Positions 6,348-52,523 of a stretch of DNA of 64,000 bases are shown one piece after another (the first letter of the stretch is position 1; the number at the start of each line of letters is the position of its first letter). The position numbers were made by a program, and so were the translations under genes. This DNA is from Trinickia soli (lineage in GTDB: Bacteria; Pseudomonadota; Gammaproteobacteria; Burkholderiales; Burkholderiaceae): the NCBI RefSeq assembly GCF_002879855.1, contig NZ_PNYB01000002.1, positions 124,001 to 188,000 on the forward strand, in the 5' to 3' direction. Under the pieces are notes generated by a model. It saw nothing but the letters and a program-made list of their open reading frames with translations. It made no database searches and was not told the DNA's origin.

Positions 6348-6419
6348 GACGTTGGCGGGGATTGTGTGAGAGGAGGGCGGATCGTCGCTCGCTGCTCGCT
6401 GAATGTGCTTGCGGCCCGC

Positions 6420-11064: not shown

Positions 11065-12534
11065 TCAACCCTTGGGTGCGTCTCCCATCGCTTGGAACAA
11101 CAGCGCCGTATCGGCGAGGCGCTGGGCGCTCGAGCGCAAGGCCGTGAGCTTGGCGTTCCAATACTGTTGTTCGCTCGCGCGCACGCTTGCGGCGGGGATT
11201 GCACCGAGGCGGCCGCGCGCGGCCGTTTCGTCGAATGCTTGCCGCGCCGATTGCGTTTGCGTTTGCGTGGCGCTAACAGCCTGCGCGTCGTGCTCGAGCG
11301 CGGCCAGCGTATCGGCTACGTTTTGAAAGGCTGATAGAACGGTCGCCTTGTATTGCTGCGTGGCCGCGTCGTAAAAGTCGATTGCCGCGCGCCGCTGCGC
11401 AAGCAGCGCGCCGCCGTGGAACAGCGGCTGCGTCAGAGATCCGCCGATGCTCCAGAGCGCGCCAGCCGCGGAAAGCGCCGTCGGCCAACTGAATCCGCCT
11501 TGCCCCATCGAAGCGGTCAGCGACAAGCTCGGGAACATCTGCGCGGTGGCCAACCCGACTTCGGCGGCAGCGGCTTTGACCGCGGCTTCGGCTGCGACGA
11601 TATCGGGCCGCGTGCGCAGCAGCGCCGAGGGGACGACGACAGGGACCTGCTCAGGCGTTGCCAAGCTGGCAAGGTCAGGAATTTCCGGCTCGGCATCGGG
11701 CGTACGGCCGAGCAAGACGGCCAGCGCATGGCCGGTCGCATCTCGCTGTTGCAGCAGCCCCGGCAGCGTCGCCTCGAACGCTGCCGCACTCTGCTGCGAA
11801 GCGAGCGCCTGCGCATGCGACACCGCGCCCAGCGCATAGCGACGCGCGTCTTCCTGTGCGTTTTGTTGGGCAAGCGCGATCAGCCGTCGCGTGGCGTCGA
11901 TTTCGCTATCGAGCATGGCCGCGTTGATCGTGGTCGTCACAATGTTCGCGGCGAGGGCGCGTCGCGCGGCATTGAGTTCGAACGCTTGCACGTCCACGCG
12001 CGCGTGCAGCGCCGCATTCGCGTAGCGGACGGCGCCGAACAAGTCGAACGTATAGTGCGCTTGGATCTGACCGACGAATACGTTGTAGCGTACCGTCGGA
12101 GGGCCCGCTTCGGGGATGCCCAGCGCGCGTTCGCGTGTGGCCTGTGCGCCCGCGTCGATCGTCGGCAACAGCGATGAGCCGATCTGCGCACGCAATTGCT
12201 CGCGCGCGCCGGCCAGGTTTTTTTCGGTGGCGGCCAGCGTTGGGCTGTTTTTCAGGCCTTCGTCGACAAGCGCATCGAGCTGCGGCGAGCGGTATAGCCG
12301 CCACCATTCGGGTACCGGCTGCGCGCCGATGTCAAAGCGCTGGGAAACACCGTCGGCCATCGCCGTTTGCTCCGGCAACGCGGTGCGGCCGTAATGGGCC
12401 GGCGAGGGCATCGCCGGCGGCTGGCCGTTCGGCCCCAGCGAGCAAGCCGCCAGGGCCACCGCCGATATCGCCGCGAACGCGTGGCCGCGATGTCGGCAGC
12501 CCGTACGCAAGACGCTCATGGTCCTCATCCTCAA
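11065..12534 (-). CDS. RND efflux outer-membrane channel lipoprotein (OprM/NodT family)
   Basis: The 489-aa protein has a signal sequence ending in a lipobox (LAAC, about residues 28-31). Two repeats of the outer-membrane-factor type follow, with long helical hairpins. It would trimerise as the TolC-like exit duct. The start overlaps the upstream RND pump gene by 4 bp, and it is the last gene of the membrane-fusion protein, pump, channel operon. Confidence 0.92.
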   Translation of the reverse strand: MRMRTMSVLRTGCRHRGHAFAAISAVALAACSLGPNGQPPAMPSPAHYGRTALPEQTAMADGVSQRFDIGAQPVPEWWRLYRSPQLDALVDEGLKNSPTLAATEKNLAGAREQLRAQIGSSLLPTIDAGAQATRERALGIPEAGPPTVRYNVFVGQIQAHYTFDLFGAVRYANAALHARVDVQAFELNAARRALAANIVTTTINAAMLDSEIDATRRLIALAQQNAQEDARRYALGAVSHAQALASQQSAAAFEATLPGLLQQRDATGHALAVLLGRTPDAEPEIPDLASLATPEQVPVVVPSALLRTRPDIVAAEAAVKAAAAEVGLATAQMFPSLSLTASMGQGGFSWPTALSAAGALWSIGGSLTQPLFHGGALLAQRRAAIDFYDAATQQYKATVLSAFQNVADTLAALEHDAQAVSATQTQTQSARQAFDETAARGRLGAIPAASVRASEQQYWNAKLTALRSSAQRLADTALLFQAMGDAPKG

Positions 12535-38644: not shown

Positions 38645-38729
38645 TGACGTGCATCCTTCCTTTCATTGAATCGCGTCGCCCCGTCCCGGCATGGCATGTG
38701 AAGTCATGCGACGACACGGCGACCGATGC

Positions 38730-38773
38730 TTCGATACGCATCGAAACAAGCTGTGCCCATGCGCGGCTATAGT
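38730..38773 (+). promoter_or_regulatory. Shared operator-promoter module, copy 1
   Basis: The palindrome TTCGATACGCATCGAA (38730-38745) is followed after exactly 22 bp by TATAGT (38768-38773). The same layout recurs at 42275-42318. There is no good -35 hexamer at the right distance from TATAGT, which suggests an activator or a repressor that overlaps the -35 region. It would drive the operon at 38833 and may also affect the divergent acylase gene. Confidence 0.65.
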
Positions 38774-38832
38774 CTGCCTTCCTGCCGTGCGGCCCGCAGC
38801 GCGGGGAGCACGCGATGCCTCGGAGACCTTCG

Positions 38833-39267
38833 ATGAATCAAACCGCCGACGCCAAATTGATGCTGCATATTTTCGACACCTGGCACGATACGGTCCGCAA
38901 ACGAGATCTGAAGTCTACCGCTGCGCTCTACGCTACGGATGCGGTGCTCGAAACGCCGTTGGCACTCGCTGTCTATCCTGAGCGCAAGTCCGGCCTCATT
39001 ACGGGCAGGGAAGCGATCCTCACGTTCTTCGAAGACAGCATCCGCAAGTTTCCCAGCGATCTCTCGCAGTGGTATCGAACCGGGGTGTTCTTCGTCAACG
39101 GCAGACAGTTGACCTGGGAGTATCCGCGCGTCGCGCCCGCCGGCGACCAGGTCGACCTGATGGAGATGATGGACATCGGCCACGATGGCCTGATCGCGAG
39201 TCATCGCGTCTACTGGGGCTGGAATGGCGTCAAGCTGCTGACGTCCGCTTTGGCGCGAGATCTATGA
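38833..39267 (+). CDS. NTF2-like (SnoaL-type) protein
   Basis: Start at ATG 38833 (144 aa); GGAG lies 8 bp upstream. The cone-shaped NTF2-like fold is suggested by LMLHIFDTWHDTVRKRDLKS, TDAVLETPLA, GREAILTFFEDSI and the closing beta strands with MEMMDIGHDGLI. Such proteins are isomerases, cyclases or binding proteins. It overlaps the next start by 4 bp. Confidence 0.72.
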   Translation: MNQTADAKLMLHIFDTWHDTVRKRDLKSTAALYATDAVLETPLALAVYPERKSGLITGREAILTFFEDSIRKFPSDLSQWYRTGVFFVNGRQLTWEYPRVAPAGDQVDLMEMMDIGHDGLIASHRVYWGWNGVKLLTSALARDL

Positions 39268-40751
39268 CAGAGGGGCGAGGCGGGCGGCGGCTGGCGATCG
39301 TTGGCGGCGGCGCGAGCGGGGTTGCGGCATTCGTGGCGGCGGTCAGGTACGGCGTCGCGCAATCGATCGACATCGTCGATCCAAGGGGGATCGGACGCGG
39401 GACGGCGTTCGCCGCGCGGCGCGCTGCGTTGCTTTGCAATACCTCGGTCGAAACGATGTCGATCGTCGATGACAACCCCGATGACTTTCTGGCCTATCTG
39501 CACTCGATCGGCGTGCCCGCGACGCGCGATGCGTTCGTCCCGCGCGCTCATGTATCGAGCTACCTGACGTCGCGTTACGAGCAGTTTGCCGCGCTTGCGC
39601 GCGCGGCCGGCATCGAAACGCGCCTCGTGCGAGCCGCCGCGTCAGGCATCGACAAAGCGGCGCGTGGCGGCTACGTCGTCTCGCTCGATAACGGCACGGC
39701 GCTCGATGCGACGGACGTGCTCGTTTGCACGGGGCACGGCGGCCCGTATCTGCCCGATGCGGTCAAGCCGCATGTCGGCGCACCGCTTCTGTTCGAGAGC
39801 CTGTATCCGGAAGATCGCGTGCTCGCTGCGCTCGAACCCGCCTCGCGTGTGCTCGTTCTCGGCAGCCGATTGTCTGCCGTCGATTCGGCGCTCCTCTTGT
39901 GCGCGGCGGGGCACATCGTTGAGATCGTGTCGCCGTCGGGGCGCTTGCCGGCGGTCCGGACGGCGACAACCCGTGCCTGTCCCGTAGCGGTCGATACAAA
40001 GGGGCTCGCGCAGATCGATCTGGATTCGGATGGGTCCTCGCTATCGTGGCGGCTACTACGGATCGTTGCGCGTTCAGCGCGCGCGGTACACGGGCGAGCC
40101 TTGAGCGCTCAAGTGGTACGCGCATGCGCGCCGATCGAGCGCATGCGTCGCGAGGCCGAGCTCGCACGGCGCGGCATGACCGATTGGCAAGACATTCTCG
40201 TCGCCTATATGGATGCGGCGCAGAGGCGATTGCGCGGCGAGAGGCTCGAGCGTCAACGGCGTGCGCTGGCCGAATGCGCACGCGTCGTCGGCCGCTATCT
40301 GTTCGCCTGTCCGCTGCAAAGCGCCGAGAAACTGCTGGAGTACGCGCAGGCTCAGCGCTTGACAGCGAAAGCGGGGAGCCCCGCGCAGCTGCATTTCGGC
40401 GCTCGCTGGAGCGTGCGCTGGAAAGAGGGCGGACAGGACGCATATGATGCGATCGTCTGTGCGACCGGGTTTCATAAAGCATCGTCAGGGGCGATGGCAG
40501 AGGGCTTACGGTTCGATGATCCGGCGGCCGCCGACACGACGATACACGTTGGCCCCGACTTGCGCGTGGTGCTGCCGGGGGCGGCGCGCCCCGAACGGAT
40601 CTGGCTGCTCGGTCTTGCCTCGCAAGCGGGCACGCCTATCGTCAATGCCGTCTATCAATCGGTGCGCCAGGCGTTCGAGGTTTGCCGCGCGTGGCACGAG
40701 GGCGATGCCCTGCATCAATCACAAGGATTCGTAGCCGAGGAGGCGCAATGA
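39264..40751 (+). CDS. FAD/NAD(P)-binding flavoprotein (NAD_binding_9-like)
   Basis: Start at ATG 39264, overlapping the NTF2-like gene (495 aa). The FAD site is LAIVGGGASGVAAFVAAVRY. It continues IDIVDPRGIGRGTAF and CNTSVETMSIVDDNPDDFLAYL, typical of the NAD_binding_9 / YdhS-like group. A second nucleotide site is near RVLVLGSRLSAVDSAL, and the late phrase IVCATGFHKAS resembles the ATGY motif of N-hydroxylating monooxygenases. The substrate is unknown. Context suggests a role in the adjacent specialised-metabolite locus. Confidence 0.72.
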   Translation: MTEGRGGRRLAIVGGGASGVAAFVAAVRYGVAQSIDIVDPRGIGRGTAFAARRAALLCNTSVETMSIVDDNPDDFLAYLHSIGVPATRDAFVPRAHVSSYLTSRYEQFAALARAAGIETRLVRAAASGIDKAARGGYVVSLDNGTALDATDVLVCTGHGGPYLPDAVKPHVGAPLLFESLYPEDRVLAALEPASRVLVLGSRLSAVDSALLLCAAGHIVEIVSPSGRLPAVRTATTRACPVAVDTKGLAQIDLDSDGSSLSWRLLRIVARSARAVHGRALSAQVVRACAPIERMRREAELARRGMTDWQDILVAYMDAAQRRLRGERLERQRRALAECARVVGRYLFACPLQSAEKLLEYAQAQRLTAKAGSPAQLHFGARWSVRWKEGGQDAYDAIVCATGFHKASSGAMAEGLRFDDPAAADTTIHVGPDLRVVLPGAARPERIWLLGLASQAGTPIVNAVYQSVRQAFEVCRAWHEGDALHQSQGFVAEEAQ

Positions 40752-41449
40752 GACTTTACGGCGATCGGGGTTCGAGCAATACGCGTCGCGTGTTGACGGT
40801 GATCGATCACCTGAATCTGGATGTCGAATTCAGATTCGTGAATCTTTTTGTCGGGGAAAACCGCACACCCGAATATCTTGCGCTGAATCCGAACGGAACG
40901 ATTCCGACTTTCACCGATGGCAATCTCACATTGTTCGAAGCGTCGGCCATCATGATCTATTTGGCCGAAAAAACCGCCTCCACGTTATGGCCGCCAGGCC
41001 TCGCGCGCTTCGAGGTGTTGAAGTGGATGTTCTGGGCCGCCGAGCATTTCCGGCGCGGCCCGTCCGTGCTGATCGACGAGCGCTTTATCCATCGGCTAAA
41101 GGGGCAGCCTGAAGATCCGGCTTTGGTCGCTGACGCGATGAAATCGATTCACCGCTATGCGGCCGTCCTCGACAGTCACTTGCGCGATCGCGCATTCGTG
41201 GTAGGCGAAACGCCGACGCTCGCCGATATCGACCTCGCGTCACCGTTCAGCCATATCGCACGTACGCGTGCCCCCTTCGATGTCTATCCGAATCTGGGCG
41301 CCTGGCATGCGAGGTTGTCGGAGGCCATACCGGCCTGGCGAACGAGCGGCGCCGACCTGGAGCGCCGGATCGCCGAAATAGAAGCGTCGTTCGAAGGCGG
41401 CGACGCGGCGCGCCACGGCGTTGCGCCGCTGGCCGCAGCGCAAGCCTGA
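40748..41449 (+). CDS. Glutathione S-transferase
   Basis: Start at ATG 40748, overlapping the flavoprotein stop (233 aa). The N-terminal thioredoxin fold begins MRLYGDRGSSNTRRVLTVID, with NPNGTIPTFTD and LFEASAIMIYLAE (the Glu-Ser GSH-binding pair). The C-terminal helical domain has VVGETPTLADIDLASPF. It may detoxify reactive intermediates from the linked pathway. It converges with the ArsR-type gene. Confidence 0.84.
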   Translation: MRLYGDRGSSNTRRVLTVIDHLNLDVEFRFVNLFVGENRTPEYLALNPNGTIPTFTDGNLTLFEASAIMIYLAEKTASTLWPPGLARFEVLKWMFWAAEHFRRGPSVLIDERFIHRLKGQPEDPALVADAMKSIHRYAAVLDSHLRDRAFVVGETPTLADIDLASPFSHIARTRAPFDVYPNLGAWHARLSEAIPAWRTSGADLERRIAEIEASFEGGDAARHGVAPLAAAQA

Positions 41450-41470
41450 TGCCGCCGATCGGCAGGCGCG

Positions 41471-42208
41471 CTAGGCGCTTTCGCGGTAATCGTTGAAAGC
41501 GGACGTCGGGTTTTTCAACGCGTCGAGATCAATGCCGAAGTGCTCGCGCAGTGCATCCGAGCCGGCCGGCGTCACCGTGACTGCACGTGTGTCCCGACCC
41601 CGGCGCAGCCATGTCCACGCGCAGAACCCGTTCATCAAATGCGCGCCGAGAGGACCGGCGATGTGGTATTGCCGCTCCGTCCAATCGAGGCAGCGATGCG
41701 CGTGGCCCGTCTGATTGGCGAACGGGCCGCCCACATCCAGCCCCAGCCGCTGCAGCAACGCGTGACCGGCCGGCGTCAGTTCGTACTCGTATTCGCTGCG
41801 TTCGACGAGATACGCTCGCGCCAGCATCGCCTGGGTGACGGCCACGCCGACCTGTCCCGCCAGATGGTCGTAACAGCATCGGGCAAAGCGCAGTTCGCGC
41901 GCGCAGCGGTTCGGCGTCGACCGCCATTCCTGCGTCACGGGGCCGACCGAAGCGAGGCTCTCCAGCACGCGCGGAACGTGCGGTCCCGCGAGGCTGTAGT
42001 AGCGGTGCCGTCCTTTACACTCGACGCGCAGCAATCCGCCATCGAGCAGTTTCGAAAGATGCGAACTGGCCGTCTGCGCCGTGACGCCCGCAGCATCCGC
42101 GAGTGCGCCCGCCGAGCGTGCGCTTCCATCGGCCAGCGTGATCAGGATGACCGCACGCACGGGCTCTGCGATCAAATGCGCCACCGTGGAAATATTGTGC
42201 TGACTCAC
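41471..42208 (-). CDS. ArsR/SmtB-type winged-helix transcriptional regulator
   Basis: The GTG start at 42208 (245 aa) has GAGGG upstream. The winged HTH spans about 5-85: IAEPVRAVILITLADGSARS, TAQTASSHLSKLLDGGLLRV and KGRHRYYSLAG. The C-terminal domain includes RCCYDHLAGQVG, a phrase I associate with the larger ArsR-like regulators of Burkholderiaceae. It sits between the two operons whose promoters share the palindrome, so it is the best local candidate to bind it. Confidence 0.82.
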   Translation of the reverse strand: MSQHNISTVAHLIAEPVRAVILITLADGSARSAGALADAAGVTAQTASSHLSKLLDGGLLRVECKGRHRYYSLAGPHVPRVLESLASVGPVTQEWRSTPNRCARELRFARCCYDHLAGQVGVAVTQAMLARAYLVERSEYEYELTPAGHALLQRLGLDVGGPFANQTGHAHRCLDWTERQYHIAGPLGAHLMNGFCAWTWLRRGRDTRAVTVTPAGSDALREHFGIDLDALKNPTSAFNDYRESA

Positions 42209-42274
42209 TGTTGCCCTCGGGTTCGAACAATCAATTTATCGTTATTTCGTAGATTCTTTAAAAAATCAGTATGT

Positions 42275-42318
42275 TTCGATACGCCTCGAAGCATTCTCGA
42301 TGAGTAAACGATTATAGT
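42275..42318 (+). promoter_or_regulatory. Shared operator-promoter module, copy 2
   Basis: TTCGATACGCCTCGAA (42275-42290) is followed after 22 bp by TATAGT (42313-42318). This is the same palindrome (15 of 16 bases) and exactly the same spacing as at 38730. It lies in the AT-rich divergent gap between the ArsR-type gene and the MFS gene. Confidence 0.68.
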
Positions 42319-42349
42319 CAACAGGCCATTCCGAACCGGGCCGAACCAC

Positions 42350-43723
42350 GTGAATGAAACGAACGAATATAAAAAAAGCGTCTTATTGGCGACAAGTTTG
42401 AGCTATGTCGTAGTTATTCTCGATACGACAATCGTCAATATTGCGCTCGGCAGAATTGCCGCGTCGCTGGGCGCCGACGTCACCGGGCTGCAGTGGGTCG
42501 TCAATGCTTACACGCTGACATTCGCCAGTCTGCTGCTGACAGGCGGGCTGCTGGGCGATCGGCTCGGCGCTCGCCAGGTTTACCTGGCCGGGCTGCTGGT
42601 ATTCGCAGCCGCCTCCGCGCTGTGCGGAATGTCCGCGAATCTCACGATGCTCGTCGCCGCGCGCGTGTTGCAGGGCGTGGGGGCCGCATTGCTCGTGCCG
42701 TGCTCGTTGACGTTGATCAGCGCGGCCTATCCCGATGCGAAAGAGCGCGCCGGCGCGATCGGCGTCTGGGCCGGATGCGGTGGCGTTGCCATGGCGGCCG
42801 GGCCGCTTGTCGGCGGCCTGCTCGTTCACTGGCTTGGATGGCGCAGCATTTTCGTCGTGAACGTGCCGATCGCCGCCTGCGGCGCATTGCTGACATTACG
42901 CATTCCCGCGGGACGGCGCGCCCGTGTCGAACATATGGACTTCGCCGGTCAAGCGGCGGCTATCGTCGCGCTCGCTTGCTCGGTCGCCGTGTTGATCGAG
43001 GGCGTAAAGCTGGGCTGGACATCGGCGCTGGTCATGGCGGGTATCGCCGGTGCGATCTGCGGTTGGGTCGGGTTCGTCATGATCGAGGGCCGTCGCGCCC
43101 AACCCATGCTGCCGCTCGGTTTATTCCGCAATCCCGTTTTTTCCGCGTCGGTATTCGTTTCCCTGGTGTCGGCGCTCGTGTTCTACGGGTTGTTGTTTCT
43201 GCTGAGTTTGTATTTCCAGGAGGGGCGCGGTTGGCAATCGCTGCGTACCGGTCTTGCGTTCCTGCCATTGACGGTGATGGTGACCGCAGGCAGCTTCTCG
43301 GCCGGGCGGCTCGGGGCCGCGTTCGGAACCCAGCGTGTCGTGCTGATGGGGTTTTTGCTCTATGCGCTCGGTTTTGCGGGGTTGCTTGCGCTTGCGCATG
43401 AGGCGCCGTATTGGAGAATTGCGCTTTGCTTTCCGGCTGTCGGCTTTGGCTCGGGCGTGATTACGCCGGCCGCGACGGCGACGCTGCTCGGCGCCGTCGA
43501 CAAAACGCGTGCGGGCGTTGCCGCGGGCGTGCTCAACGCAAGTCGGCAAACCGGGTCCGCATTCGGCGTCGCCATCTTCGGCGTGCTGATGAGTCTGATC
43601 CAACCGACGGGCGTCGGCGTGCGCTTCGCGGTGTGCCTCGCCATCGTGCTGTCGCTGCTGGCCGCGTTCTGTTGGCGGATGACGCTTTCGTTCGCGGCGC
43701 GGGCGCCGGGAGCCGTCGCCTGA
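42350..43723 (+). CDS. MFS drug:H+ antiporter, DHA2 (14-TM) type
   Basis: The GTG start at 42350 gives 457 aa; no other nearby in-frame start is better. TM1 is followed by ILDTTIVNIALGRIAASLGA, the classic motif D1 of DHA2 exporters; motif C-like GVWAGCGGVAMAAGPLVGG is also present. About 14 hydrophobic segments. It lies 100 bp before the N-monooxygenase gene and under the shared promoter, so it probably exports the cluster product or gives self-resistance. Confidence 0.86.
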   Translation: MNETNEYKKSVLLATSLSYVVVILDTTIVNIALGRIAASLGADVTGLQWVVNAYTLTFASLLLTGGLLGDRLGARQVYLAGLLVFAAASALCGMSANLTMLVAARVLQGVGAALLVPCSLTLISAAYPDAKERAGAIGVWAGCGGVAMAAGPLVGGLLVHWLGWRSIFVVNVPIAACGALLTLRIPAGRRARVEHMDFAGQAAAIVALACSVAVLIEGVKLGWTSALVMAGIAGAICGWVGFVMIEGRRAQPMLPLGLFRNPVFSASVFVSLVSALVFYGLLFLLSLYFQEGRGWQSLRTGLAFLPLTVMVTAGSFSAGRLGAAFGTQRVVLMGFLLYALGFAGLLALAHEAPYWRIALCFPAVGFGSGVITPAATATLLGAVDKTRAGVAAGVLNASRQTGSAFGVAIFGVLMSLIQPTGVGVRFAVCLAIVLSLLAAFCWRMTLSFAARAPGAVA

Positions 43724-43823
43724 TTCCCCGAACCGTTTTGTCGCCTATCGTGCGCGCATGCCGCGCCCGGACCTTCGCGTGCTCGCAGTTTCACTTTCGC
43801 TTCGCCCAAGAAAAGGACTTGAA

Positions 43824-45152
43824 ATGCGCTATTCGCCAACAAACGACCCGATGGATCTCGTTGGAATTGGCATCGGGCCGGCAAACCTGAGCCTGGCCGC
43901 ACTGCTCAAGCGCCAGCCGCATGTACGCGCCCGCTTCTTCGATCGCCGTGCCGGGTTTCAGTGGCACGCGGGCCTGATGCTGCCCAATGCATCGCTGCAG
44001 GTGCCGTTTTTGAAAGACCTCGTCAGCCTCGTCGATCCGACGAGCGAGCTTTCGTTTCTTCAATTCCTGGCGAAACAAAAGCGCTTGCTGTGCTTTATCA
44101 ACGCGAATTTCCCGCAGGTCCTGCGGCGCGAATTCAATCAGTACTATCGGTGGGCATGCGAGCAATTGGACAGCCTGCACTTCGGTTGCGAAGTGCAGGC
44201 CGTCGAACTCGATCGCGATTCGCTCGTCGTGCGCGGCAACGATTGGGCACAGCCCACGCGCAACCTCGTACTCGGCACGGGCCTGCAACCTGCGGTGCCC
44301 GATTGCGCGAAGCCGTGGCTCGGCGCCACGTTGCTGCACGCGTCCCAGTATCTGATCAACAACAACCCGGTCGAAGGCAAGCGCGTCGTCGTGATCGGCG
44401 GCGGACAGACAGGGGCTGAAGTGTTTCATCATCTGCTTTCCGATTCCGGAGCGATGCCGGCGAGCGTCACATGGGCGTCGCGTCGTTGGAATTTCGCGCC
44501 GCTCGACGAATCGTCGTTCACGAACGAGCTTTATACGCCCGGCTATAGCAATTACTTCTACGACTTGCCGGAAAGGCTGCGCGCGACGTTGCTTGCCGAG
44601 CAAAAGCTCGCGAGCGATGGCGTGTCGCCCGCATTGCTCGAGGCGATCTATCGGCGCGTCTACGAACTGCGCTACGTCACCGGCATGTCGTGCAATCTGC
44701 AATTGCGGCCAGCGCGCGCGTTGATTGCCGTGACGCGCCGCGGCGACGGTTGGTCGCTGACGCTCGGGCACCAGCAGCGACAAACGCACGAGACCGTCGA
44801 CGCCGATATCGTCGTGCTTTGCACGGGCTATGTATACGGGATGCCGGCATGCCTCGATGCCATCGCGGACCGCATCGATCGCTGCGAGGACGGCTACAAC
44901 GTCAACCCCGATTATTCGATCCGCTGGGATGGTCCGGCCGACTGCCGGATATTCGTGCAGAACGCTGCGAAGCATCAACGTGGCATAGCCGATCCCAATC
45001 TCGGGCTGATTCCATGGCGGTGCGCGCAGATCATCAACAGCGTGGCCGGGTCTCAGTTGTACGACGTGGACGAGGCCGCGCCGTTCGTGCATTGGGAGGC
45101 GCAGCCTATGCCCGTTCAGAGCGGCGCCCCCGACCTGGAGATGATGTCGTGA
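43824..45152 (+). CDS. L-lysine/L-ornithine N-monooxygenase (flavin, NADPH)
   Basis: Start at ATG 43824 with AAAAGGA upstream (442 aa). It has the FAD site LVGIGIGPANLSLAAL (about 12-27), the substrate-region phrase DLVSLVDPTSELSFLQFL, the NADPH site VVVIGGGQTGAEVFHHLL (about 187-205) and the ATGY-type motif VLCTGYVYGMP (about 330). This is the SidA/PvdA/IucD family that hydroxylates the side-chain amine of ornithine or lysine. No siderophore synthetase genes are near. Instead it is coupled (stop overlaps next start) to a cupin and a MetRS-like gene, which suggests a supply of N6-hydroxylysine for N-N bond formation. Confidence 0.9.
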   Translation: MRYSPTNDPMDLVGIGIGPANLSLAALLKRQPHVRARFFDRRAGFQWHAGLMLPNASLQVPFLKDLVSLVDPTSELSFLQFLAKQKRLLCFINANFPQVLRREFNQYYRWACEQLDSLHFGCEVQAVELDRDSLVVRGNDWAQPTRNLVLGTGLQPAVPDCAKPWLGATLLHASQYLINNNPVEGKRVVVIGGGQTGAEVFHHLLSDSGAMPASVTWASRRWNFAPLDESSFTNELYTPGYSNYFYDLPERLRATLLAEQKLASDGVSPALLEAIYRRVYELRYVTGMSCNLQLRPARALIAVTRRGDGWSLTLGHQQRQTHETVDADIVVLCTGYVYGMPACLDAIADRIDRCEDGYNVNPDYSIRWDGPADCRIFVQNAAKHQRGIADPNLGLIPWRCAQIINSVAGSQLYDVDEAAPFVHWEAQPMPVQSGAPDLEMMS

Positions 45153-45574
45153 CCGCTGGCTCCAATGACGAGAACGCGGGGCGCGCTGCGTTCGAACCGA
45201 TATTGATTAGCACCCCTGAGGATATGACGCCGCCGCCCGCGGCTGTGCCGGGCGCGCCGTTTATCGGGGAGGCAGAAGAGGCGGTCGATATTCGCGGCGT
45301 GCGCCTGTTCATGCATGTGTTCGATGCACGGCTGCGCAGTGCATCGCTGCGTAGCTCGCGTTTCACGATCGAACCGGGCTGCGGCACGCATGAGGATCGC
45401 CACGCCGTGCGCGAGATCTGGTTCGTGTCGCAGGGCCAGCTCGAAGTCTGCTACGACGGCGAGTGCTATCGCGTCGAAGCGGGACAAGCCTTGTTCTTCG
45501 AACCTTGGAGGCCGCATTTCACGCGCAACATCGGCGTGGAAAGGGCGGAAATCTTCTCCGTTTGGTGGGCGTGA
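45149..45574 (+). CDS. Cupin protein, probable N-N bond-forming half of a split hydrazine synthetase
   Basis: The GTG at 45149 overlaps the previous stop (GTGA) and gives 141 aa. The cupin core has motif 1 as GCGTHEDRHAVREIW (metal-ligand His near 80 and 84, Glu near 88) and motif 2 as FFEPWRPHFTRN (His near 122). In known hydrazine synthetases a zinc cupin is fused to a MetRS-like domain and joins N6-hydroxylysine to glycine through an activated ester; here it is a separate protein. A plain regulatory or sugar cupin is the alternative, but operon position makes that less likely. Confidence 0.78.
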   Translation: MTAGSNDENAGRAAFEPILISTPEDMTPPPAAVPGAPFIGEAEEAVDIRGVRLFMHVFDARLRSASLRSSRFTIEPGCGTHEDRHAVREIWFVSQGQLEVCYDGECYRVEAGQALFFEPWRPHFTRNIGVERAEIFSVWWA

Positions 45575-45575
45575 T

Positions 45576-46649
45576 ATGACACGCGACTATGACCTGCTCA
45601 TCGTTGGCGGCGGCATCGTGGGCGCGTGGACGTTGTGGCTCGCACGGCGACGCTTTCCGCAATGGCGGATTCTTCTGATCGAGCGCTTTCGCAACAGCGA
45701 CGGCGCGACCGCGCACTCTGCCGGCGTATTGCTCGCAACGGGCCGCACGCCGCGCGAACGGCGCCTTGCAGCGCTCGGTGCCGAACTGTACCGCGAGATC
45801 GGGGAGCCGCTCGGGTTGCGCACGTCCGCTGCAGAGGTATTTTGGGTAGCCGATGCGGCGCGTACGCCGGCACTGCGGCAAGTCGCCGTCGGCTTTTCGA
45901 TCGATGAAGCTGCTGTGCCGCCGGCGCACCTGCGCGACCGGCTGTTGGCGCCGCTCGAATTGCGCACGAACGAGGTATTGCTGCGCGGAGGGACTGCCGT
46001 GAGCCACGATCCTGCCGCGATCGCGCGCGGGTTGATCGAGGCCAGCCTGCAAGAAGCGAACGTATCTTGTATCGAGGGCGCCGGCGTACGCGGAATCTTG
46101 CCGGGCGAGGCGAAGGTCGAACTGACGCTCGAGGACGGCGCTGTCGTGTCGGCCGCACGCGCTGTCATAGCCGTCGGGCCGTGGATCGTGGGCGAGCCGT
46201 TCGCGCAATCGTTCGCGGCGCTTGCATCCATCCGTGCGCTGCGCATCAAGAAAGTCGTCGCGTTACATGTCGACTGCGTGCCGCCGGCGGATGCCGCCGC
46301 CGTGTTCTTGCCCGAAGCAGACGCGTACCTGATGCCGTTGCCGCTGCGCAGGCAATGGCTTTTCAGTTTTCGTGCCGACGAATGGGACTGCCGTCCGTTC
46401 AAACATGCGCTCGAGATTTCGCCGCACGATCGCGAACTCGCGCTTCGTATCGTCGACCGATATGGACTGGGCGCGCGCGAAGCGTATCGCGGAGGAAGAG
46501 TCTTCTGCGATGCCTATACGCCTTCGGGCGAACCGCTCGTCGAACGTGTGCCGAACGCGCCGATCGTCATCGCGGGCGCGGGCAGCGGTGCAGGCTTCAG
46601 ACTCTCGCCCGGGCTCGCCGACGAGGCGTTGCGCCTTTTGAGCGATTGA
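45576..46649 (+). CDS. DAO-family FAD-dependent amine oxidase, first copy
   Basis: ATG at 45576, one base after the cupin stop (357 aa). The FAD site is YDLLIVGGGIVGAWTLWLAR. The rest follows the D-amino acid/glycine oxidase fold, with AVIAVGPWIVGEPFA and the C-terminal flavin phrase IVIAGAGSGAGFRLSPGLAD. In the hydrazinoacetate pathway such an oxidase cleaves the lysine-N-N-glycine adduct. Which of the two DAO enzymes here does this cannot be told. Confidence 0.85.
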   Translation: MTRDYDLLIVGGGIVGAWTLWLARRRFPQWRILLIERFRNSDGATAHSAGVLLATGRTPRERRLAALGAELYREIGEPLGLRTSAAEVFWVADAARTPALRQVAVGFSIDEAAVPPAHLRDRLLAPLELRTNEVLLRGGTAVSHDPAAIARGLIEASLQEANVSCIEGAGVRGILPGEAKVELTLEDGAVVSAARAVIAVGPWIVGEPFAQSFAALASIRALRIKKVVALHVDCVPPADAAAVFLPEADAYLMPLPLRRQWLFSFRADEWDCRPFKHALEISPHDRELALRIVDRYGLGAREAYRGGRVFCDAYTPSGEPLVERVPNAPIVIAGAGSGAGFRLSPGLADEALRLLSD

Positions 46650-46671
46650 CCCTTACACGCCGTCGCTCCTC

Positions 46672-48321
46672 ATGTCATTGCCAACCTTCGAGATCGTCAT
46701 GCACGTCGAACCGCAAAAGTTCTTTCTGATGCCGATTCCGCCGACGCCCAACGGCCGATTGCATTTGGGCCATATCGCCGGGCCGTATCTACGTATGGAC
46801 ATGCTGGGCCGCTATTTGCGCACGCAAGGGCATCGGGTGGATGTCGTATCGGCCGTCGACGGTTTCGATTCGTATGTGCTGTGGAAGGCCCTGCAGGAAG
46901 GTCGCACGCCGCAGGATGTGTGCAGCGATTATCATCGGCAGATCGCGCACGACCTGGCCTCGCTCGATATCGTCGTCGATGATTTCCTCGACCTCGTGCA
47001 AGGGCCGCATGCTCGCCGGCACGCGGAAAACGCGCGCCGTGCGATCGAGCGTTTGGTCGAACGCGGATTGACCGAGACGATCGTCGAGAAGGTGTTGTAC
47101 AGCGAGAAGACAGGGCGCTACCTGGCGGGCGCGTGGCTCGTCGGTCATTGCCCGCAATGCGGCGCGGGGGCGGCAGGCTACTTCTGCGAAGCGTGCGGCG
47201 CCCATTTTCGTCCGCAGGCGATGGTCGAGCCGCGCGCGCGCATGGGCGACGATGCGCTCGAATGGCGCGAGGTCGAAAGCCTGTTCCTCCGTATCGACGA
47301 AGAAGAGCCGCTGCTTCGCTCGATCGCGGCAAGCGGTGCGTCGCCGCGCTTCATGGATGTGGTTCGCCGCTTCCTGGCGCAGGAGGGGCGACGCGTGCGG
47401 CTGACCGCGCCGGGCGAGTGGGGCGTGGCGTGGAGCGCGGACCGCTTCGGCAATCCTCGCGTGCTGTTCGAAGCGGGCTGGGAGTATGCGCTGACGTGCG
47501 GCGATCAGTGTGCGAGCGAAGCGGACGAAATGCATCCGATGTATCGCAACTGCGACACGACAACCCTCGTGAGCTTTGGCATCGACAACGCGGTGTTGCT
47601 GCTTGCGGGCAGTGCCGCAGTGATGGGAGCGCTGCCCGACTGCAAGCCGTTCGACTATGTGTTGACCAACTACTTTTACAACCTGCAAGGCGAAAAGTTT
47701 TCGACGAGCCGGCTGCATGTCGTGTGGGCCGCCGATATCGTGGAAGCGACGCCTGCGACGAGCGACGCCGTTCGATATTTTCTCGCGCGCGAAAGTCCTG
47801 AAGAGGAGACGACGAACTTCGACGTCGATGCCTTCATCGCCTTTGTCAACGATGAGCTCGTGTCGACCTTGCAAGCCCGTATTCATACCGCGGGTGCCGC
47901 GCTCGATAACCTGAGTGGAGAGCTGGTCCAGATCTGCGAGCCCCTATCCGGCGAACTCGCCGCGATGCTCGAGGCGCTCGGCGTGTCGTTTCGATTGAAT
48001 GCCGTGACGGTTCGCGGCGCATGCGCGGTCTTGCTCGCGTGGACGATGCGGCCGGGGATCGACCTCAGCGATGCAATCCAGGCATATGGCTGGCTGAAGG
48101 GGCTGGCCTGCATCGCAGCGCCGGTAATGCCGCGTCTTGCGAACGAGATATGGTGGGCGCTCGGCCACGACGGCGCGCCGTTGCAGGCGCAGTTGTGGAC
48201 GGCGACACGGCCTCGCGGCGGCCTTGCCGTGCGTCAATGGTTCGCACCGCTCCAGCGCGATTCGCTCGATCGTTGCTTGCCAGCGGGGCAGCTGCGGGAG
48301 CGGAGCGCCGCCCATGCGTGA
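46672..48321 (+). CDS. Methionyl-tRNA synthetase-like enzyme, probable amino-acid-activating half of a split hydrazine synthetase
   Basis: The 549-aa class I synthetase has the HIGH motif as LHLGH (about 29-33), a zinc knuckle CPQC...CEAC (about 160-176) and the KMSKS motif as KFSTS (about 342-346). A C-terminal helical domain follows. No C-terminal tRNA-binding extension is seen. A housekeeping MetRS would not be expected inside a flavoenzyme operon overlapping its neighbour by 8 bp. In known hydrazine synthetases the MetRS-like part activates glycine and loads it onto N6-hydroxylysine. A second cellular MetRS with antibiotic-resistance function is an alternative. Confidence 0.82.
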   Translation: MSLPTFEIVMHVEPQKFFLMPIPPTPNGRLHLGHIAGPYLRMDMLGRYLRTQGHRVDVVSAVDGFDSYVLWKALQEGRTPQDVCSDYHRQIAHDLASLDIVVDDFLDLVQGPHARRHAENARRAIERLVERGLTETIVEKVLYSEKTGRYLAGAWLVGHCPQCGAGAAGYFCEACGAHFRPQAMVEPRARMGDDALEWREVESLFLRIDEEEPLLRSIAASGASPRFMDVVRRFLAQEGRRVRLTAPGEWGVAWSADRFGNPRVLFEAGWEYALTCGDQCASEADEMHPMYRNCDTTTLVSFGIDNAVLLLAGSAAVMGALPDCKPFDYVLTNYFYNLQGEKFSTSRLHVVWAADIVEATPATSDAVRYFLARESPEEETTNFDVDAFIAFVNDELVSTLQARIHTAGAALDNLSGELVQICEPLSGELAAMLEALGVSFRLNAVTVRGACAVLLAWTMRPGIDLSDAIQAYGWLKGLACIAAPVMPRLANEIWWALGHDGAPLQAQLWTATRPRGGLAVRQWFAPLQRDSLDRCLPAGQLRERSAAHA

Positions 48322-49441
48322 AACCGCCGATGTCGTCGTGATCGGCGCAGGCACGACCGGTTGTGCGATTGCGTGGCATCTCGCTCGGAGTGGGGCGGCC
48401 GTGCGGCTCGTCGAACGTTCGGACATCTGCGCCGGCTCGTCAGGGGCGTCGCCCGGTATCGTGCGGCAGTATTACGCCGATTCGACGCTCGCGATTTTGG
48501 CGCGTGCGGGGCTTGACGCTTATCGGCGTTGGAGTGAAATCGTAGGCGGCGAGTGCGGGTATCGGCGCACGGGTTTCGCCACGGCTGTGTCCATGGCGCA
48601 AGAACATGCTGCGCGGGCGCACGTTGCCGCTTTGCAGGCGAAGGGAATCGCGCTCGAATGGTGGCCCGTGGAGGTATTGCACCGCCGGTTCCCCGATCTG
48701 CAGAGCGACGATCTGGCGGGTGCGGTATTCGAAGCCGATGCGGGCTACTGCGATGCGCGGGCGACGGCGCTGACGTATGCCAACCGCGCCCGTGCGTACG
48801 GCGCCGCCATCGATGTCCAATGCGCCGCACTGAGTATCGGCGTGCAGGGCGGTCGCGTCGAAGGGGTCGAGACCGAGCGTGGCCGGATCGATTGCGGCGT
48901 TGTCGTGAATGCGGCCGGGCCGTGGGCGGCGACACTGGCTGCGCGATGCGCAGCGCCGCTGCCGATCGCAGCGTCGCGGCAGGGTGTCGCGATTCTGCGT
49001 ATCGGCCACGAGACGAGCGGCATGTTGCCCGGCTTTTCCGATCGGGATGCCGGTTTCTATCTTCGCCCCGACTCGCCGGGTCGTTACGTTATCGGCTCGT
49101 TGCGGGCAGACGATTCGGGCCCGACTTCCCCGGACAACGTTGAGCGAGCTATGGACGACGCCGAAGCGATCCGTTACCGGGATCGTGCGGCGCGAAGATT
49201 TGCACGCCTTGCCGAGGCGATTCCGATCGGCCGGCGCGTGTCGTTCTTCGACGATACGCCTGACGGCAATCCGCTGTTCGGCCCGGATCCGCGCGTGACC
49301 GGGCTCTTCGTCGCGGCGGGGCTGTCGGGACACGGCTTCAAGTTTGCGCCAGTGTTCGGTCAGGCGGCTGCCGACTGGGTGTTCAGCCGGCGGATGCGGC
49401 CGGAGATGCGCGCGTTTGCGGTCGAACGCACGTTGGGGTGA
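48314..49441 (+). CDS. DAO-family FAD-dependent amine oxidase, second copy
   Basis: ATG 48314 overlaps the MetRS-like stop by 8 bp (375 aa). The FAD site is ADVVVIGAGTTGCAIAWHLA, followed by SGASPGIVRQYY and the C-terminal GLFVAAGLSGHGFKFAPVFG, close to glycine/sarcosine oxidase-type enzymes. It is the last gene of the five-gene unit and is more sarcosine-oxidase-like than the copy at 45576. It may cleave the adduct or oxidise the hydrazine further. Confidence 0.86.
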   Translation: MRETADVVVIGAGTTGCAIAWHLARSGAAVRLVERSDICAGSSGASPGIVRQYYADSTLAILARAGLDAYRRWSEIVGGECGYRRTGFATAVSMAQEHAARAHVAALQAKGIALEWWPVEVLHRRFPDLQSDDLAGAVFEADAGYCDARATALTYANRARAYGAAIDVQCAALSIGVQGGRVEGVETERGRIDCGVVVNAAGPWAATLAARCAAPLPIAASRQGVAILRIGHETSGMLPGFSDRDAGFYLRPDSPGRYVIGSLRADDSGPTSPDNVERAMDDAEAIRYRDRAARRFARLAEAIPIGRRVSFFDDTPDGNPLFGPDPRVTGLFVAAGLSGHGFKFAPVFGQAAADWVFSRRMRPEMRAFAVERTLG

Positions 49442-49455
49442 GGGGCGGCTTCATT

Positions 49456-50760
49456 TCAAGCCGCGGTATCGGGAAGACCGACGAGCCGCGCCGCGGGCGA
49501 GCGCACGATCACGCAAGCCTGGATAGCGAAAGCGAGCACCGCAACGACGAGACACGGTTGGGCGCCGGCCGTGCCTCCAAGCACCGCGCCGATCAGCGTG
49601 CCGATTGGCCGTGCGCCGTAGGTTGCCGTGCTGATGAGCGCCGACACGCGTCCGAGCATCGATTCGGGCGTGACGGCTTGTCGCAGCGTCGTGGAACTGA
49701 TGACCCAAAGTATCGGGCCGAAGCCCAACTGAAAATACGATGCGGCGGCCAGCCACGGCGAAGGGGCGAGCAGGGTGAGGCAAAGCGTGAGCGATGCGGC
49801 CAATCCGCACAGCGGCCCGACGATGATCACCTGGCCCAGCCGAAAGCGCGCCATGACATGCGGCGCCACGAGCGCTCCGACGATCATGCCTGCGCCATAT
49901 GCGGCCAACGTTGCGCCAACTTCGATGGGAGACAGTCCAAGTTGACGGCTTGCGTAAGGGACGTAGACCGCCTGTATCAGGAAGAAACCTACATTGAAAA
50001 ATATCGCGGTCATCGCGATAGCCCGCAACAACGGGTTGCCGGTGACGAAGGCCGCGCCTTCGCGCAATTCCGACGCGAACTGCCTGCGAGGGGGCGGTGT
50101 ACGTGTCGGCTCGTCTATACCTGCGAGCAGCAGCGCGGCTGAAGCGGAGAGTGCGGCAGCGACGACAAAAGCGGAGGCGGCGCCGATCACGCCGACAAGC
50201 AAGCCGCCAAGCGCCGGTCCGGCCGAGTACGCGATGCTGCGCGCCAATTCGGTTCTACCGTTGGCCTTGGCCCAGCCACCGCGTTCGACGAGCGCGGTGA
50301 TCAGCGAGGGCGATGCAACGTTGTACGCGACGGTGCCGCATGCGCCGATGAACCCGCACACGGCGAGCAGCGGCAACGACAATCTGCCGGAGACGACAGC
50401 GGCCAATACGACGAGTAAAGCGACACAACGCACCGCCTCCGCTCGGGCCATGAGCTTTTTGCGCGAAGCCTGATCGGCGCGCACGCCGAGCGCGATCGAC
50501 AACAACAGGAACGGGAGCGTCTGTGCCGTTTGCAGCCAACCCGTCTGGCCCGGTCCCGCGCCGAGGGCAAATACGGCGACGATGGGCGTGGCGGCAAGGC
50601 CGATCTGTTCGGCAGATTGTGCGGCGAGGTTCGACCACGCCAATCGGTGGAAGGCGCGTGGCAGCTCTGTGGTGGCGGAAGGTTTGATTGCACTGTGTAC
50701 CGGCATGGCGGGCGGTCCGTATCGGGATTTCGGTCGGACTATCCTCGCTGCAGCCGTCAT
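49456..50760 (-). CDS. MFS exporter (MFS_3 / EntS-like)
   Basis: The 434-aa protein has about 12 TM segments. It begins AFHRLAWSNLAAQSAEQIGL and has the phrases ALGVRADQASRKKLMARAEA and GFIGACGTVAYNVASPSLI, typical of EntS-like small-metabolite exporters. The start is uncertain (an ATG at 50706 is also possible). It converges with the hydrazine-type operon with a 14-bp gap, consistent with a role in export or resistance. Confidence 0.84.
   Translation of the reverse strand: MTAAARIVRPKSRYGPPAMPVHSAIKPSATTELPRAFHRLAWSNLAAQSAEQIGLAATPIVAVFALGAGPGQTGWLQTAQTLPFLLLSIALGVRADQASRKKLMARAEAVRCVALLVVLAAVVSGRLSLPLLAVCGFIGACGTVAYNVASPSLITALVERGGWAKANGRTELARSIAYSAGPALGGLLVGVIGAASAFVVAAALSASAALLLAGIDEPTRTPPPRRQFASELREGAAFVTGNPLLRAIAMTAIFFNVGFFLIQAVYVPYASRQLGLSPIEVGATLAAYGAGMIVGALVAPHVMARFRLGQVIIVGPLCGLAASLTLCLTLLAPSPWLAAASYFQLGFGPILWVISSTTLRQAVTPESMLGRVSALISTATYGARPIGTLIGAVLGGTAGAQPCLVVAVLAFAIQACVIVRSPAARLVGLPDTAA
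50565..50602. repeat. 38-bp direct repeat, copy A (inside the MFS_3 gene)
   Basis: These 38 bases recur at 55079-55116 in the same orientation with one mismatch (position 5, A versus G). Here they are part of the coding sequence for the first TM region of the exporter. Confidence 0.9.
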
Positions 50761-50795
50761 CGCCAGCTAGCCGAATCTTGCGGTTTCATATCCGC

Positions 50796-50819
50796 GTTTC
50801 GCCGTTTCGCCGTTTCGCA
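50796..50819. repeat. Three tandem 8-bp units GTTTCGCC
   Basis: Two exact copies and one ending in A lie in the 84-bp gap upstream of the MFS_3 start. They could be a local regulatory repeat or slippage product; no function is claimed. Confidence 0.8.
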
Positions 50820-50844
50820 GCTTTACCGATTTACCGCATTACGC

Positions 50845-51906
50845 TTAGTGTCGGTGCCGGTGATGGATGTCGGGGAAATGCGCGTGCGAGTGCGTGATGG
50901 GCAGGTGAACATGCGAATGAGTATGGGGCTCGTCGCTGTCGTACTCAAAATCGTGCTTGTGTTGATGATGTTCGTCGTGGCGATGCCGGTGCGTATGTTC
51001 GAGACGATCATGCGTGTGGTCGTGCTCGTGGCGCTCGCGCACGTGCAGCCAAACGCCGAGCGCCATGAACATCGCGGCGATCCAGAATGTGATCGAAGGC
51101 AACTCGGGCCATAGGACTAGCGAGAGCGCGACGCCGAAGAGCGGCGCGACTGAAAAATACGCGCCTGTGCGTGCCGTTCCCAAATGCCGAAGCGCGACGA
51201 CGAACAGCACGAGGCTTACCCCATAGCCGGCGAAGCCCGTCAGCATAGCGGCAGCGACGAGGCTGGCGGACGGCAACGTGGCGCCCAACGAAAATGCGAT
51301 CGTGAGATCGACGGGGCCCGCAATCAAGCCCTTCAAACACGCGATCACCATCGCGTCGTTTGCGGCGACCTTGCGCGTCAGGTTGTTATCGATCGCCCAA
51401 CACAGACACGCGCCGAAGATCAGCAATGCGCCGACCGAAAGCGCGAAATGGCCGGGGTGCAATGAGAGAAGGACGCCGCCGGCGACGATGGCGAGCATGC
51501 CGAGCAATACTTGGACATCCACGTTCTCGCGAAAGACAACCCATGCAATGACCGCGGTCAGGACACTCTCGAGGTTCAGTAAGAGCGAGCTCGTCGCCGC
51601 TGGCGTGCTCGACAAACCGAGCATGAGCAGGGCGGGGCCCGCCACGCCCCCGGCGAGAATCGCACCGAAGAGCCAAGGCCATTCGGTTCGCTGAAATCGG
51701 TGTTGCGCGGCCGATCCCGCGTCGCCTTGCCGCCATCGCCGGATCGCGATGCAGGCGCAGAGCCCCAGGCCGCTGCCGAGATAAAAGAGGCCGGCCACCA
51801 GGAAGGCGGACATGGATCCCAGGAGCGCTTTGGCAAGCGGCGTGGCGGCGCCGAATAACGCGGCAGCGGCGAGGGCGATGAGGATTGCGTTGCGTTGCGG
51901 ATGCAT
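50845..51906 (-). CDS. EamA/DMT-family transporter with long His-rich tail
   Basis: Start at ATG 51906 (353 aa); a longer frame to 52077 has no transporter-like sequence. Two EamA repeats with ten TM segments begin LIALAAAALFGAATPLAKAL. After the last TM (about 290) comes a tail of about 60 residues packed with His, Asp and Glu (for example HEHDHTHDRLEHTH and HTHSHVHLP). Such tails bind Ni, Co or Zn. It may be a metabolite exporter with metal sensing or buffering, or a metal transporter. Confidence 0.8.
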   Translation of the reverse strand: MHPQRNAILIALAAAALFGAATPLAKALLGSMSAFLVAGLFYLGSGLGLCACIAIRRWRQGDAGSAAQHRFQRTEWPWLFGAILAGGVAGPALLMLGLSSTPAATSSLLLNLESVLTAVIAWVVFRENVDVQVLLGMLAIVAGGVLLSLHPGHFALSVGALLIFGACLCWAIDNNLTRKVAANDAMVIACLKGLIAGPVDLTIAFSLGATLPSASLVAAAMLTGFAGYGVSLVLFVVALRHLGTARTGAYFSVAPLFGVALSLVLWPELPSITFWIAAMFMALGVWLHVRERHEHDHTHDRLEHTHRHRHDEHHQHKHDFEYDSDEPHTHSHVHLPITHSHAHFPDIHHRHRH

Positions 51907-52523
51907 GTGCGGGGCAAGGGGGCAGCGGCATGCTGCAGTTATCGCGCAGTTTACCGAATCCGCTGGAGAAAGCCGGCTTCTGCAAGGGGGCCGCGTCGAT
52001 CGACTGCGACAGAAAGCGCCGATCGAGCAGGGGCTGGCTTGAGTGCGGTTCCGCTCCATGCGGTTTCTCCGCGGCAATCATGTCGTAGCAGATACCGCGT
52101 GCAATCAATCGGTCGCTGCATCTCCTGATTAGCGGCAATTACCGTATCGCCACGCCGGAATCACGGCGTTCTCGCCTTTGCATGCGAAACGGCCGCACAG
52201 AGGTGACGCCGAACGCGCGCGGCGGACTTTGCTTAGTCGAAAGTATTCGTTCGCTTTCGTTGCTGCGCCTTCGATACTTGTCCTTCAATTCGCGTGCGGG
52301 CAAAGTGCCCCGCGAGACGGACGACGCGCGGTCGCGGGGCTCGTTGTCCTGGGTTCCGGGTACGGATCGAGCATCGCCGACAGCCACCTCTGCGTGTTGC
52401 GCGAGCGGTTCGTGTCGCCGGCCGACGGTTGCTCCGCGTTCGATCCGAATCGGTCCGGCCGCCCGGCGTGACCACGAGGACGCGCTTCCACTTCCATTTC
52501 ACCAACACGTCTCAGCCGCTCAT
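51907..52523. other. Long intergenic region
   Basis: This 617-bp stretch separates divergent genes. An in-frame extension of the downstream gene reaches back to 52182, but its sequence (Arg/Ser/Cys-rich, no conserved look) reads as non-coding. The only pattern I can point to is the TTCG-N16-TTCG pair at 52250. Confidence 0.5.
52250..52273 (+). promoter_or_regulatory. Candidate hrpII-type box (TTCG-N16-TTCG)
   Basis: TTCG at 52250-52253 and TTCG at 52270-52273 are exactly 16 bp apart, the spacing bound by HrpB/HrpX-type activators of type III secretion genes. A YANNNT -10 candidate (CAAAGT, 52301-52306) is about 4 bp closer than the usual 30-32. TTCG is very frequent in this genome, so chance is a real possibility. 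Confidence 0.35.

Follow-up and report, generated by a model that had tools for sequence, protein, structure and literature searches.

A conserved ten-gene cluster of Trinickia soli predicted to build and export a small N-N-bonded metabolite

The stretch of DNA analyzed here, which will be called the window, consists of 64,000 nucleotides of the Trinickia soli genome (assembly GCF_002879855.1, contig NZ_PNYB01000002.1, positions 124,001 to 188,000 of the forward strand). It carries a cluster of ten genes, the products of which, judging from sequence comparisons, very probably build and export a small metabolite containing a nitrogen-nitrogen (N-N) bond. An earlier note on this DNA had proposed a hydrazine-forming operon of five genes, coding for an N-monooxygenase (NMO), a cupin, a flavoenzyme of the DAO family (DAO1), a protein resembling methionyl-tRNA synthetase (MetRS-like), and a second DAO flavoenzyme (DAO2). 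These five genes were all found to be intact and to occur on the same strand in the order claimed, and their Pfam assignments are, in this order, Lys/Orn monooxygenase, Cupin_2, DAO, tRNA-synt_1g, and DAO. The proposed operon was therefore borne out as far as its members are concerned but not as regards its boundary: the conserved unit comprises ten genes (38815-49441), those added to the core encoding a SnoaL-like protein, a PF13454 flavoenzyme (FADNAD9), a glutathione S-transferase (GST), an ArsR-type regulator, and a DHA2 exporter of the major facilitator superfamily (MFS). The ten genes are the following:

38815..39267, + strand: SnoaL-like protein, 150 aa, first gene of the tailoring operon (PF12680, 27.7 bits, cut-off 27)
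39264..40751, + strand: FADNAD9, PF13454 flavoprotein, 495 aa, predicted N-oxygenase (PF13454, 100 bits)
40748..41449, + strand: glutathione S-transferase-like protein (PF02798, 55 bits)
41471..42208, - strand: ArsR-type helix-turn-helix regulator, 245 aa (PF12840, 43 bits)
42350..43723, + strand: DHA2-type MFS exporter, first gene of the N-N operon (PF07690, 189 bits)
43824..45152, + strand: NMO, flavin N-monooxygenase, predicted to act on Lys or Orn (PF13434, 354.9 bits)
45149..45574, + strand: zinc cupin with a GTG start, predicted N-N forming half of a hydrazine synthetase (PF07883, 56 bits)
45576..46649, + strand: DAO1, FAD oxidase of a family linked to hydrazine synthetases (PF01266, 87 bits)
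46672..48321, + strand: MetRS-like protein, predicted ligase half of a hydrazine synthetase (PF09334, 178 bits)
48314..49441, + strand: DAO2, sarcosine/glycine-oxidase-like FAD enzyme (PF01266, 214 bits)

The NMO and cupin genes overlap by 4 bases and the MetRS-like and DAO2 genes by 8 bases, and DAO1 starts one base past the cupin stop. The true start of the MetRS-like gene is probably at 46699, giving a protein of 540 aa, because the related locus L017 has a stop directly 5' of the equivalent ATG. The DHA2 exporter scored 226 bits with an EmrB-type NCBIfam model, slightly below the cut-off of 230. The "two dedicated exporters" previously attributed to the operon are reduced to one: the DHA2 exporter belongs to the unit, whereas the second MFS gene (MFS2, 49456-50760, - strand) neighbors the cluster in just the two closest relatives. 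Neither a carrier protein, a ligase or a nonribosomal peptide synthetase (NRPS) nor any metallo-oxidase family was detected among the ten genes in Pfam scans, and the Rfam scan of 38000-52200 gave zero matches.

The cupin and the MetRS-like protein are predicted to form a hydrazine synthetase (HS). Only two PDB entries matched the cupin at E 0.01, the best being 5UQP (E 1.9e-12), followed by 4rd7 (E 6e-6). 5UQP is RHS1 of Rhodococcus jostii, described in PMC8664883 as a demonstrated N-N bond former, the activity of which is lost when any of the residues D63, H65, E69, and H103 is replaced by alanine. These four zinc ligands align with D83, H85, E89, and H123 of the window cupin, and W71 of RHS1 with W91. 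In the ten cupins from HS loci that were aligned, both histidines and the glutamate are always conserved, and the aspartate in nine cases. As regards the MetRS-like protein, the HLGH and KFSTS motifs are invariant in all five of the aligned rows; the lysine of the ATP motif is required in PyrN (PMC8664883).

The NCBIfam model NF008863, "methionine--tRNA ligase", scores the MetRS-like protein at 659.5 bits, above its cut-off of 551, as would be the case if it were a second, possibly inhibitor-resistant methionyl-tRNA synthetase. The domains Anticodon_3, Anticodon_1, and tRNA_bind were all undetected in this protein, however, although the same scan found all three in the 726-aa housekeeping MetRS, which is encoded by a separate, intact gene of this genome. 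In a tree of 106 rows, from which three short rows (L045, L066, and L076) and duplicate loci including L016 and L017 were left out, 92 MetRS-like sequences are split from 14 housekeeping ones with a Shimodaira-Hasegawa-like support (SH-aLRT) of 100, the program flagging long branches at the join; the grouping with housekeeping MetRS, which the earlier note had named as an outcome contrary to its proposal, was not seen. One genome per species was scanned with the MetRS-like alignment, and the best 80 of the 136 confirmed HS loci were kept; in 70 of these 80 loci, the MetRS-like gene has an NMO match in its vicinity. A second tRNA synthetase is thus barely credible. NF008863 may lead to HS proteins of this kind being annotated as tRNA ligases, which may explain why such clusters go unnoticed. 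The RHS1-like ligands of the cupin, the split in the tree, the missing tRNA domains, and the separate MetRS support the view that an NMO, a cupin/MetRS-like HS, and a DAO oxidase would here give rise to an N-N metabolite.

The NMO gene belongs to the same operon as the cupin and MetRS-like genes. Among proteins of solved structure, those nearest to the NMO in sequence are DfoA, SsDesB, and the putrescine hydroxylase 7us3, followed by 9nns (labeled either MbtG or the ornithine enzyme EtcB, depending on the listing) and KtzI. Residues K64 and N234 are the same in 9nns and KtzI; in DfoA, SsDesB, and 7us3, the former position is occupied by Ala or Ser and the latter by Leu. In PvdA/SidA, the amino acid is bound by the equivalent Lys and Asn. 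Among 77 NMOs of HS loci, the lysine is kept in 68 and the asparagine in 70, and the R. jostii lysine hydroxylase carries the same two residues; the Robbsia NMO lacks both. Because K64 and N234 match amino-acid-type hydroxylases, the substrate is expected to be an amino acid rather than a diamine, namely lysine or ornithine, between which these residues do not discriminate. The Legionella loci (L051, L056, L059-L062, L064, and L065) carry NMO and MetRS-like HS genes with no DAO1 match at 1e-6, and in seven of their eight NMOs the lysine at the substrate position is missing and replaced by Asn.

Enzymes of the SidA/IucD/PvdA type mostly serve siderophores, and the T. soli genome does contain an IucA/IucC-type synthetase, so that the NMO might be devoted to a hydroxamate siderophore and its neighbors be unrelated to it. 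The earlier statement that no siderophore synthetase occurs nearby holds true for 38-52 kb, where Pfam scans detected no siderophore synthetase or NRPS along with the NMO, but not for the whole genome. The IucA/IucC locus, located on another contig, consists of genes for a receptor, a decarboxylase, a PALP protein, an octopine-dehydrogenase-like protein, the synthetase, and an exporter, and no NMO was found there in the Pfam scan; we take the PALP and octopine-dehydrogenase-like genes to be SbnA/SbnB-like diaminopropionate genes. Likewise, there is no NMO among the six genes scanned at a two-module NRPS locus. Across the genome, PF13434 gave just one strong match, the window NMO (354.9 bits, versus 31.8 and 20.2 for two others, with a cut-off of 21.3), and in all nine genomes carrying the ten genes the NMO is clustered with the cupin and MetRS-like genes. 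The NMO may supply a distant siderophore locus in trans, but a siderophore function with unrelated neighbors is very unlikely.

The other genes of the window were sought in the 80 HS loci by tblastn (E 1e-6), a procedure in which divergence below the cut-off can read as absence. Besides the NMO matches, the cupin was matched in 44 loci, DAO1 in 40 (actinomycetes among them), DAO2 in 15, the DHA2 exporter in 10, FADNAD9 and the GST in nine each, and the SnoaL-like protein and the ArsR-type regulator in eight each. The full set of ten genes is present in eight of the 80 loci, belonging to the metagenome-assembled genome (MAG) FW106, Trinickia Y13, T. fusca, Paraburkholderia sejongensis, Pseudomonas marginalis, P. 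veronii, P. trivialis, and P. lactucae. All eight SnoaL matches sit in these ten-gene loci, and the regulator is present in each of them. The gene order is identical to that of the window in seven of these eight loci; the fact that T. fusca keeps all ten genes in a different order argues against a mere inherited neighborhood. Comparisons between open reading frames (ORFs) showed no extra gene common to the ten-gene stretches beyond close relatives. Partial sets occur in L066 (a Xanthobacteraceae MAG), with six genes at a contig end, and in L022, at a contig start; L045 (Acidisphaera sp. S103) carries the five core genes, with the MetRS-like gene in two overlapping frames (9974-11654), reflecting either decay or a sequencing error. 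At the family level, matches were found in 14 of 398 genomes at 1e-40, and at the class level in 2 of 369 at 1e-60, that of the window being counted in both cases. This distribution is sporadic, as for a mobile specialized pathway.

Some of the HS loci have features of their own. The FW106 genome harbors, besides its ten-gene copy, a second, distant HS cluster (L019, G007:C36:50000-69999) showing identities of 41% for the NMO, 35% for the cupin, 31% for DAO1, and 27-31% for the MetRS-like protein. On plasmid p1 of Robbsia andropogonis (L012), the HS genes adjoin genes for a diaminobutyrate aminotransferase and a member of the aspartate-aminotransferase family, and are separated by one insertion sequence element from an annotated xopQ effector.

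In the intergenic stretches, an inverted repeat, TTCGAYACRCNTCGAARCA, was found to precede both operons, each copy being located 19 bp 5' of a TATAGT box:

38730..38748, + strand: operator 1 (predicted), inverted repeat TTCGATACGCATCGAAACA, 19 bp before a TATAGT -10-like box at 38768-38773
42275..42293, + strand: operator 2 (predicted), inverted repeat TTCGATACGCCTCGAAGCA, 19 bp before TATAGT at 42313-42318

With a search pattern derived from these two sites themselves, only these two sites were found at up to one mismatch in the 6.10-Mb genome, and none with the reversed control. At two mismatches, a close pattern gave three matches in the window versus 0.01 expected, the third being site 1 read on the other strand. 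In all seven relatives showing the same layout, a site with at most one mismatch precedes the exporter gene. Before the SnoaL gene, the same seven relatives show no mismatches (L016, L017, and L021), two (L025), or three (L023, L024, and L026); matches with three mismatches also arise by chance in these loci (in L018 and L023, for example), and the SnoaL sites of L023, L024, and L026 therefore rest on their position. T. fusca has a single perfect site, located in a divergent promoter, and no site was found at up to three mismatches in L022, L027, L045, or L066. The ten genes are apparently under joint control, and the position of its gene points to the ArsR-type protein as the putative binder of the shared operator.

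A natural deletion shows how the unit can come apart. Genome G074 contains a FADNAD9 match (55%) without being one of those in which the MetRS-like protein was matched. Its locus (L140, G074:C13, 6301-11810) shows 90% DNA identity to that of P. sejongensis (L021) across 5.2 kb, from the SnoaL gene to the exporter, on which basis G074 appears to be Paraburkholderia-related. The alignment then jumps from the exporter to the last third of DAO2: the NMO, cupin, DAO1, and MetRS-like genes and two thirds of DAO2 are missing, while the SnoaL, FADNAD9, GST, regulator, and exporter genes and both operators are retained. The core can therefore go as one block while the remaining genes persist. The persistence of these genes is also what might be expected if the SnoaL-FADNAD9-GST operon and the exporter served for self-protection against a reactive hydrazine or diazo product, the NMO-cupin-DAO1-MetRS-DAO2 set alone being biosynthetic. 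GST and ArsR/efflux genes are typical of detoxification and fit this picture, but FADNAD9 is built like an oxygenase, and a deletion as recent as that of L140 need not reflect selection on the rest of the unit. Self-protection is quite possible, although it falls short of being probable.

T. fusca provides evidence of another kind about the modules involved. In the NMO, DAO1, and DAO2 trees (the latter including only 17 rows), this species falls in an 11-row clade of ten-gene and partial loci with SH-aLRT values of 99, 95, and 97, respectively. Its MetRS-like protein (37%) falls outside this clade: forcing it in lowers the log-likelihood by 24.4 (approximately unbiased (AU) test, p 0.005), the group having been picked after the tree had been seen, and T. 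fusca and Robbsia are long rows which attract each other in the MetRS-like tree. A constraint placing T. fusca with Robbsia was not rejected for the NMO tree (p 0.48). The T. fusca cupin is distant too (34%). At positions that we take to form the pocket by reference to that of E. coli MetRS, the pocket region of the window clade is unlike those of both T. fusca and R. jostii RHA1, a difference that points to no particular amino acid. Since PMC8664883 assigns to the MetRS-like protein the role of gatekeeper for the amino acid, and since both this protein and the cupin diverge in T. fusca, it is suggested that T. fusca probably combines the same tailoring enzymes with a different amino acid. A reciprocal swap in L027, a Hyphomicrobiales MAG, was considered and is not claimed: with its NMO constrained to the clade, the log-likelihood drops by 27.6, yet the AU p value is 0.135. 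At this locus, a MetRS-like gene of the window type (63%) adjoins amidase and MFS genes, and an NMO-cupin-DAO1 set of a different type is located 5 kb off on the opposite strand.

Among the further flavoenzymes, DAO2 gave profile matches over its full length with sarcosine and glycine oxidases (1y56_B, 176 bits; 7cyx, 138 bits), its orthologues having been sought in HS loci only. The FADNAD9 sequence profile matched no PDB entry and no NCBIfam model. Its AlphaFold model (predicted local distance difference test score, 83.3) had as its top Foldseek match FzmM (8cp2, E 1.5e-14), with which the longest VIA-align alignments (453-460 residues) were likewise obtained, and the fold also matches ornithine/lysine hydroxylases. 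FADNAD9 is thus predicted from its modeled fold, which resembles those of flavin N-oxygenases, to be an N-oxygenase.

The matches with FzmM would also fit an aspartate N-hydroxylase, giving nitrosuccinate and hence nitrite, which would nitrosate the hydrazine into a triazene, azide, or diazo compound; nitrosation of a hydrazine in this way is reportedly part of the triacsin pathway. There is no CreD-type (nitrosuccinate) lyase among the ten genes, however, and although in the FADNAD9 model helices seem to be inserted between the nucleotide-binding parts, as in FzmM, the two proteins differ in length (495 versus 616 aa) and show only 15-18% identity. The comparison was made at the level of the fold; for FzmM, an arginine cluster is described in PMC10404684. 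An aspartate N-hydroxylase is accordingly unlikely.

Most likely, the cluster links the nitrogens of two amino acids to form a hydrazine, which it subsequently oxidizes. The NMO would hydroxylate the side-chain nitrogen of lysine or ornithine, the MetRS-like protein would use ATP to activate a second amino acid, esterifying it onto the N-OH group, and the zinc cupin would rearrange this ester into a hydrazine. Hydroxylation, esterification, and N-N rearrangement are what is expected from the characterized HS family (PMC8664883, PMC11705231), and the case for this core chemistry, although based on homology, is strong. DAO1 would then, by analogy with Spb39, cleave the C-N bond oxidatively on the side of the hydroxylated amino acid, leaving a hydrazino acid. 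More speculatively, DAO2, as a relative of oxidases of N-substituted glycines, might oxidize the other side to give a hydrazone, and FADNAD9 might oxygenate the N-N unit. The GST and SnoaL-like proteins would modify or detoxify the product, the DHA2 carrier would export it, and the ArsR-type regulator would probably control both operons via the shared operator. A further proposal, which we find rather doubtful, is that a reactive diazo, N-nitroso, azoxy, or nitramine product may be made from the free hydrazino acid without any carrier, DAO2 giving the hydrazone and the FzmM-like flavin N-oxygenase oxidizing the terminal nitrogen, with the amino acid being exchangeable via the MetRS-like/cupin module.

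Several neighboring genes were not retained as members of the cluster. The penicillin-amidase gene (36182-38644), MFS2, and EamA were dropped, having no match in the distant members, and the two genes located 3' of DAO2 in L016 and L017, which are chrB-like and chromate-transporter-like, were excluded. The product of the former gene, encoded on the - strand just 5' of the unit, belongs to the penicillin-amidase family (PF01804, 471 bits), has no match in the relatives' stretches, and could be a PvdQ-like acylase. Elsewhere in the window, ORFs without any Pfam match are found past the transporters (52182-55070, + strand, 962 aa) and at 4098-8462 (- strand, two large ORFs of 749 and 680 aa).

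The cluster can be compared with several known systems, which are taken here as described in the papers cited. Like the window, the RHS1 cluster of R. jostii RHA1 has a standalone cupin, a MetRS-like protein, and an NMO, which in RHA1 is an N6-lysine hydroxylase (PMC8664883); the identities are 45% for the cupin (64 aa aligned), 45% for the NMO, and 29% for the MetRS-like protein, and RHA1 shares the cupin zinc ligands and the NMO residues. The RHA1 system differs in that it uses glutamate and was mined via a saccharopine-dehydrogenase homologue (PMC8664883), and DAO1, DAO2, FADNAD9, GST, and SnoaL had no match at 1e-8 in the 17-kb RHA1 stretch. Spb38-40 (s56-p1), Tri26-28 (triacsin), and the azaserine and N-nitroglycine systems have in common the logic of an NMO, a cupin/MetRS-like HS, and a DAO oxidase (PMC11705231, PMC13274452), but their HS is a didomain protein, whereas the cupin and the MetRS-like protein of the window are encoded by separate genes. 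The later steps of the azaserine and N-nitroglycine pathways, starting from hydrazinoacetate, involve carrier proteins, dehydrogenases, and an NRPS (PMC11705231, PMC13274452), the last oxidation being ascribed tentatively to metalloenzymes (PMC13274452). Dob3 is also a metalloenzyme (PMC13061610). As regards Gram-negative bacteria, a 2024 review describes Ral1-Ral2 from Ralstonia and Por9/Por11 from Pseudomonas orientalis; Por9 is tied to N5-hydroxyornithine, and Por11 couples N5-hydroxyornithine (or N4-hydroxy-diaminobutyric acid) with glycine, its product being given as unknown (PMC11705231). Like the ten-gene type, the Por and Ral systems come from Pseudomonas and Burkholderiales; they were compared by description only, and the por numbering (NMO 9, HS 11) hints at a different layout.

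HS chemistry and Gram-negative HS systems are therefore already known, and what appears to be new is this type of cluster. No paper on it was found in the open-licence literature, which did not yield the primary publications on Ral1-Ral2, Por, and Apy; nor was the pairing of an HS with two further oxidative flavoenzymes found reported there. Conservation, the shared operator, and the natural deletion together delimit a pathway type. The oxidation of hydrazines to diazo compounds and nitramines is still being worked out (in work of 2023-2026 on Dob3, azaserine, and N-nitroglycine), and the cluster offers a compact enzyme set in this context. If the carrier-free proposal is true, Pseudomonas and Burkholderiales would possess a flavin-only route from hydrazine to diazo or nitramine products.

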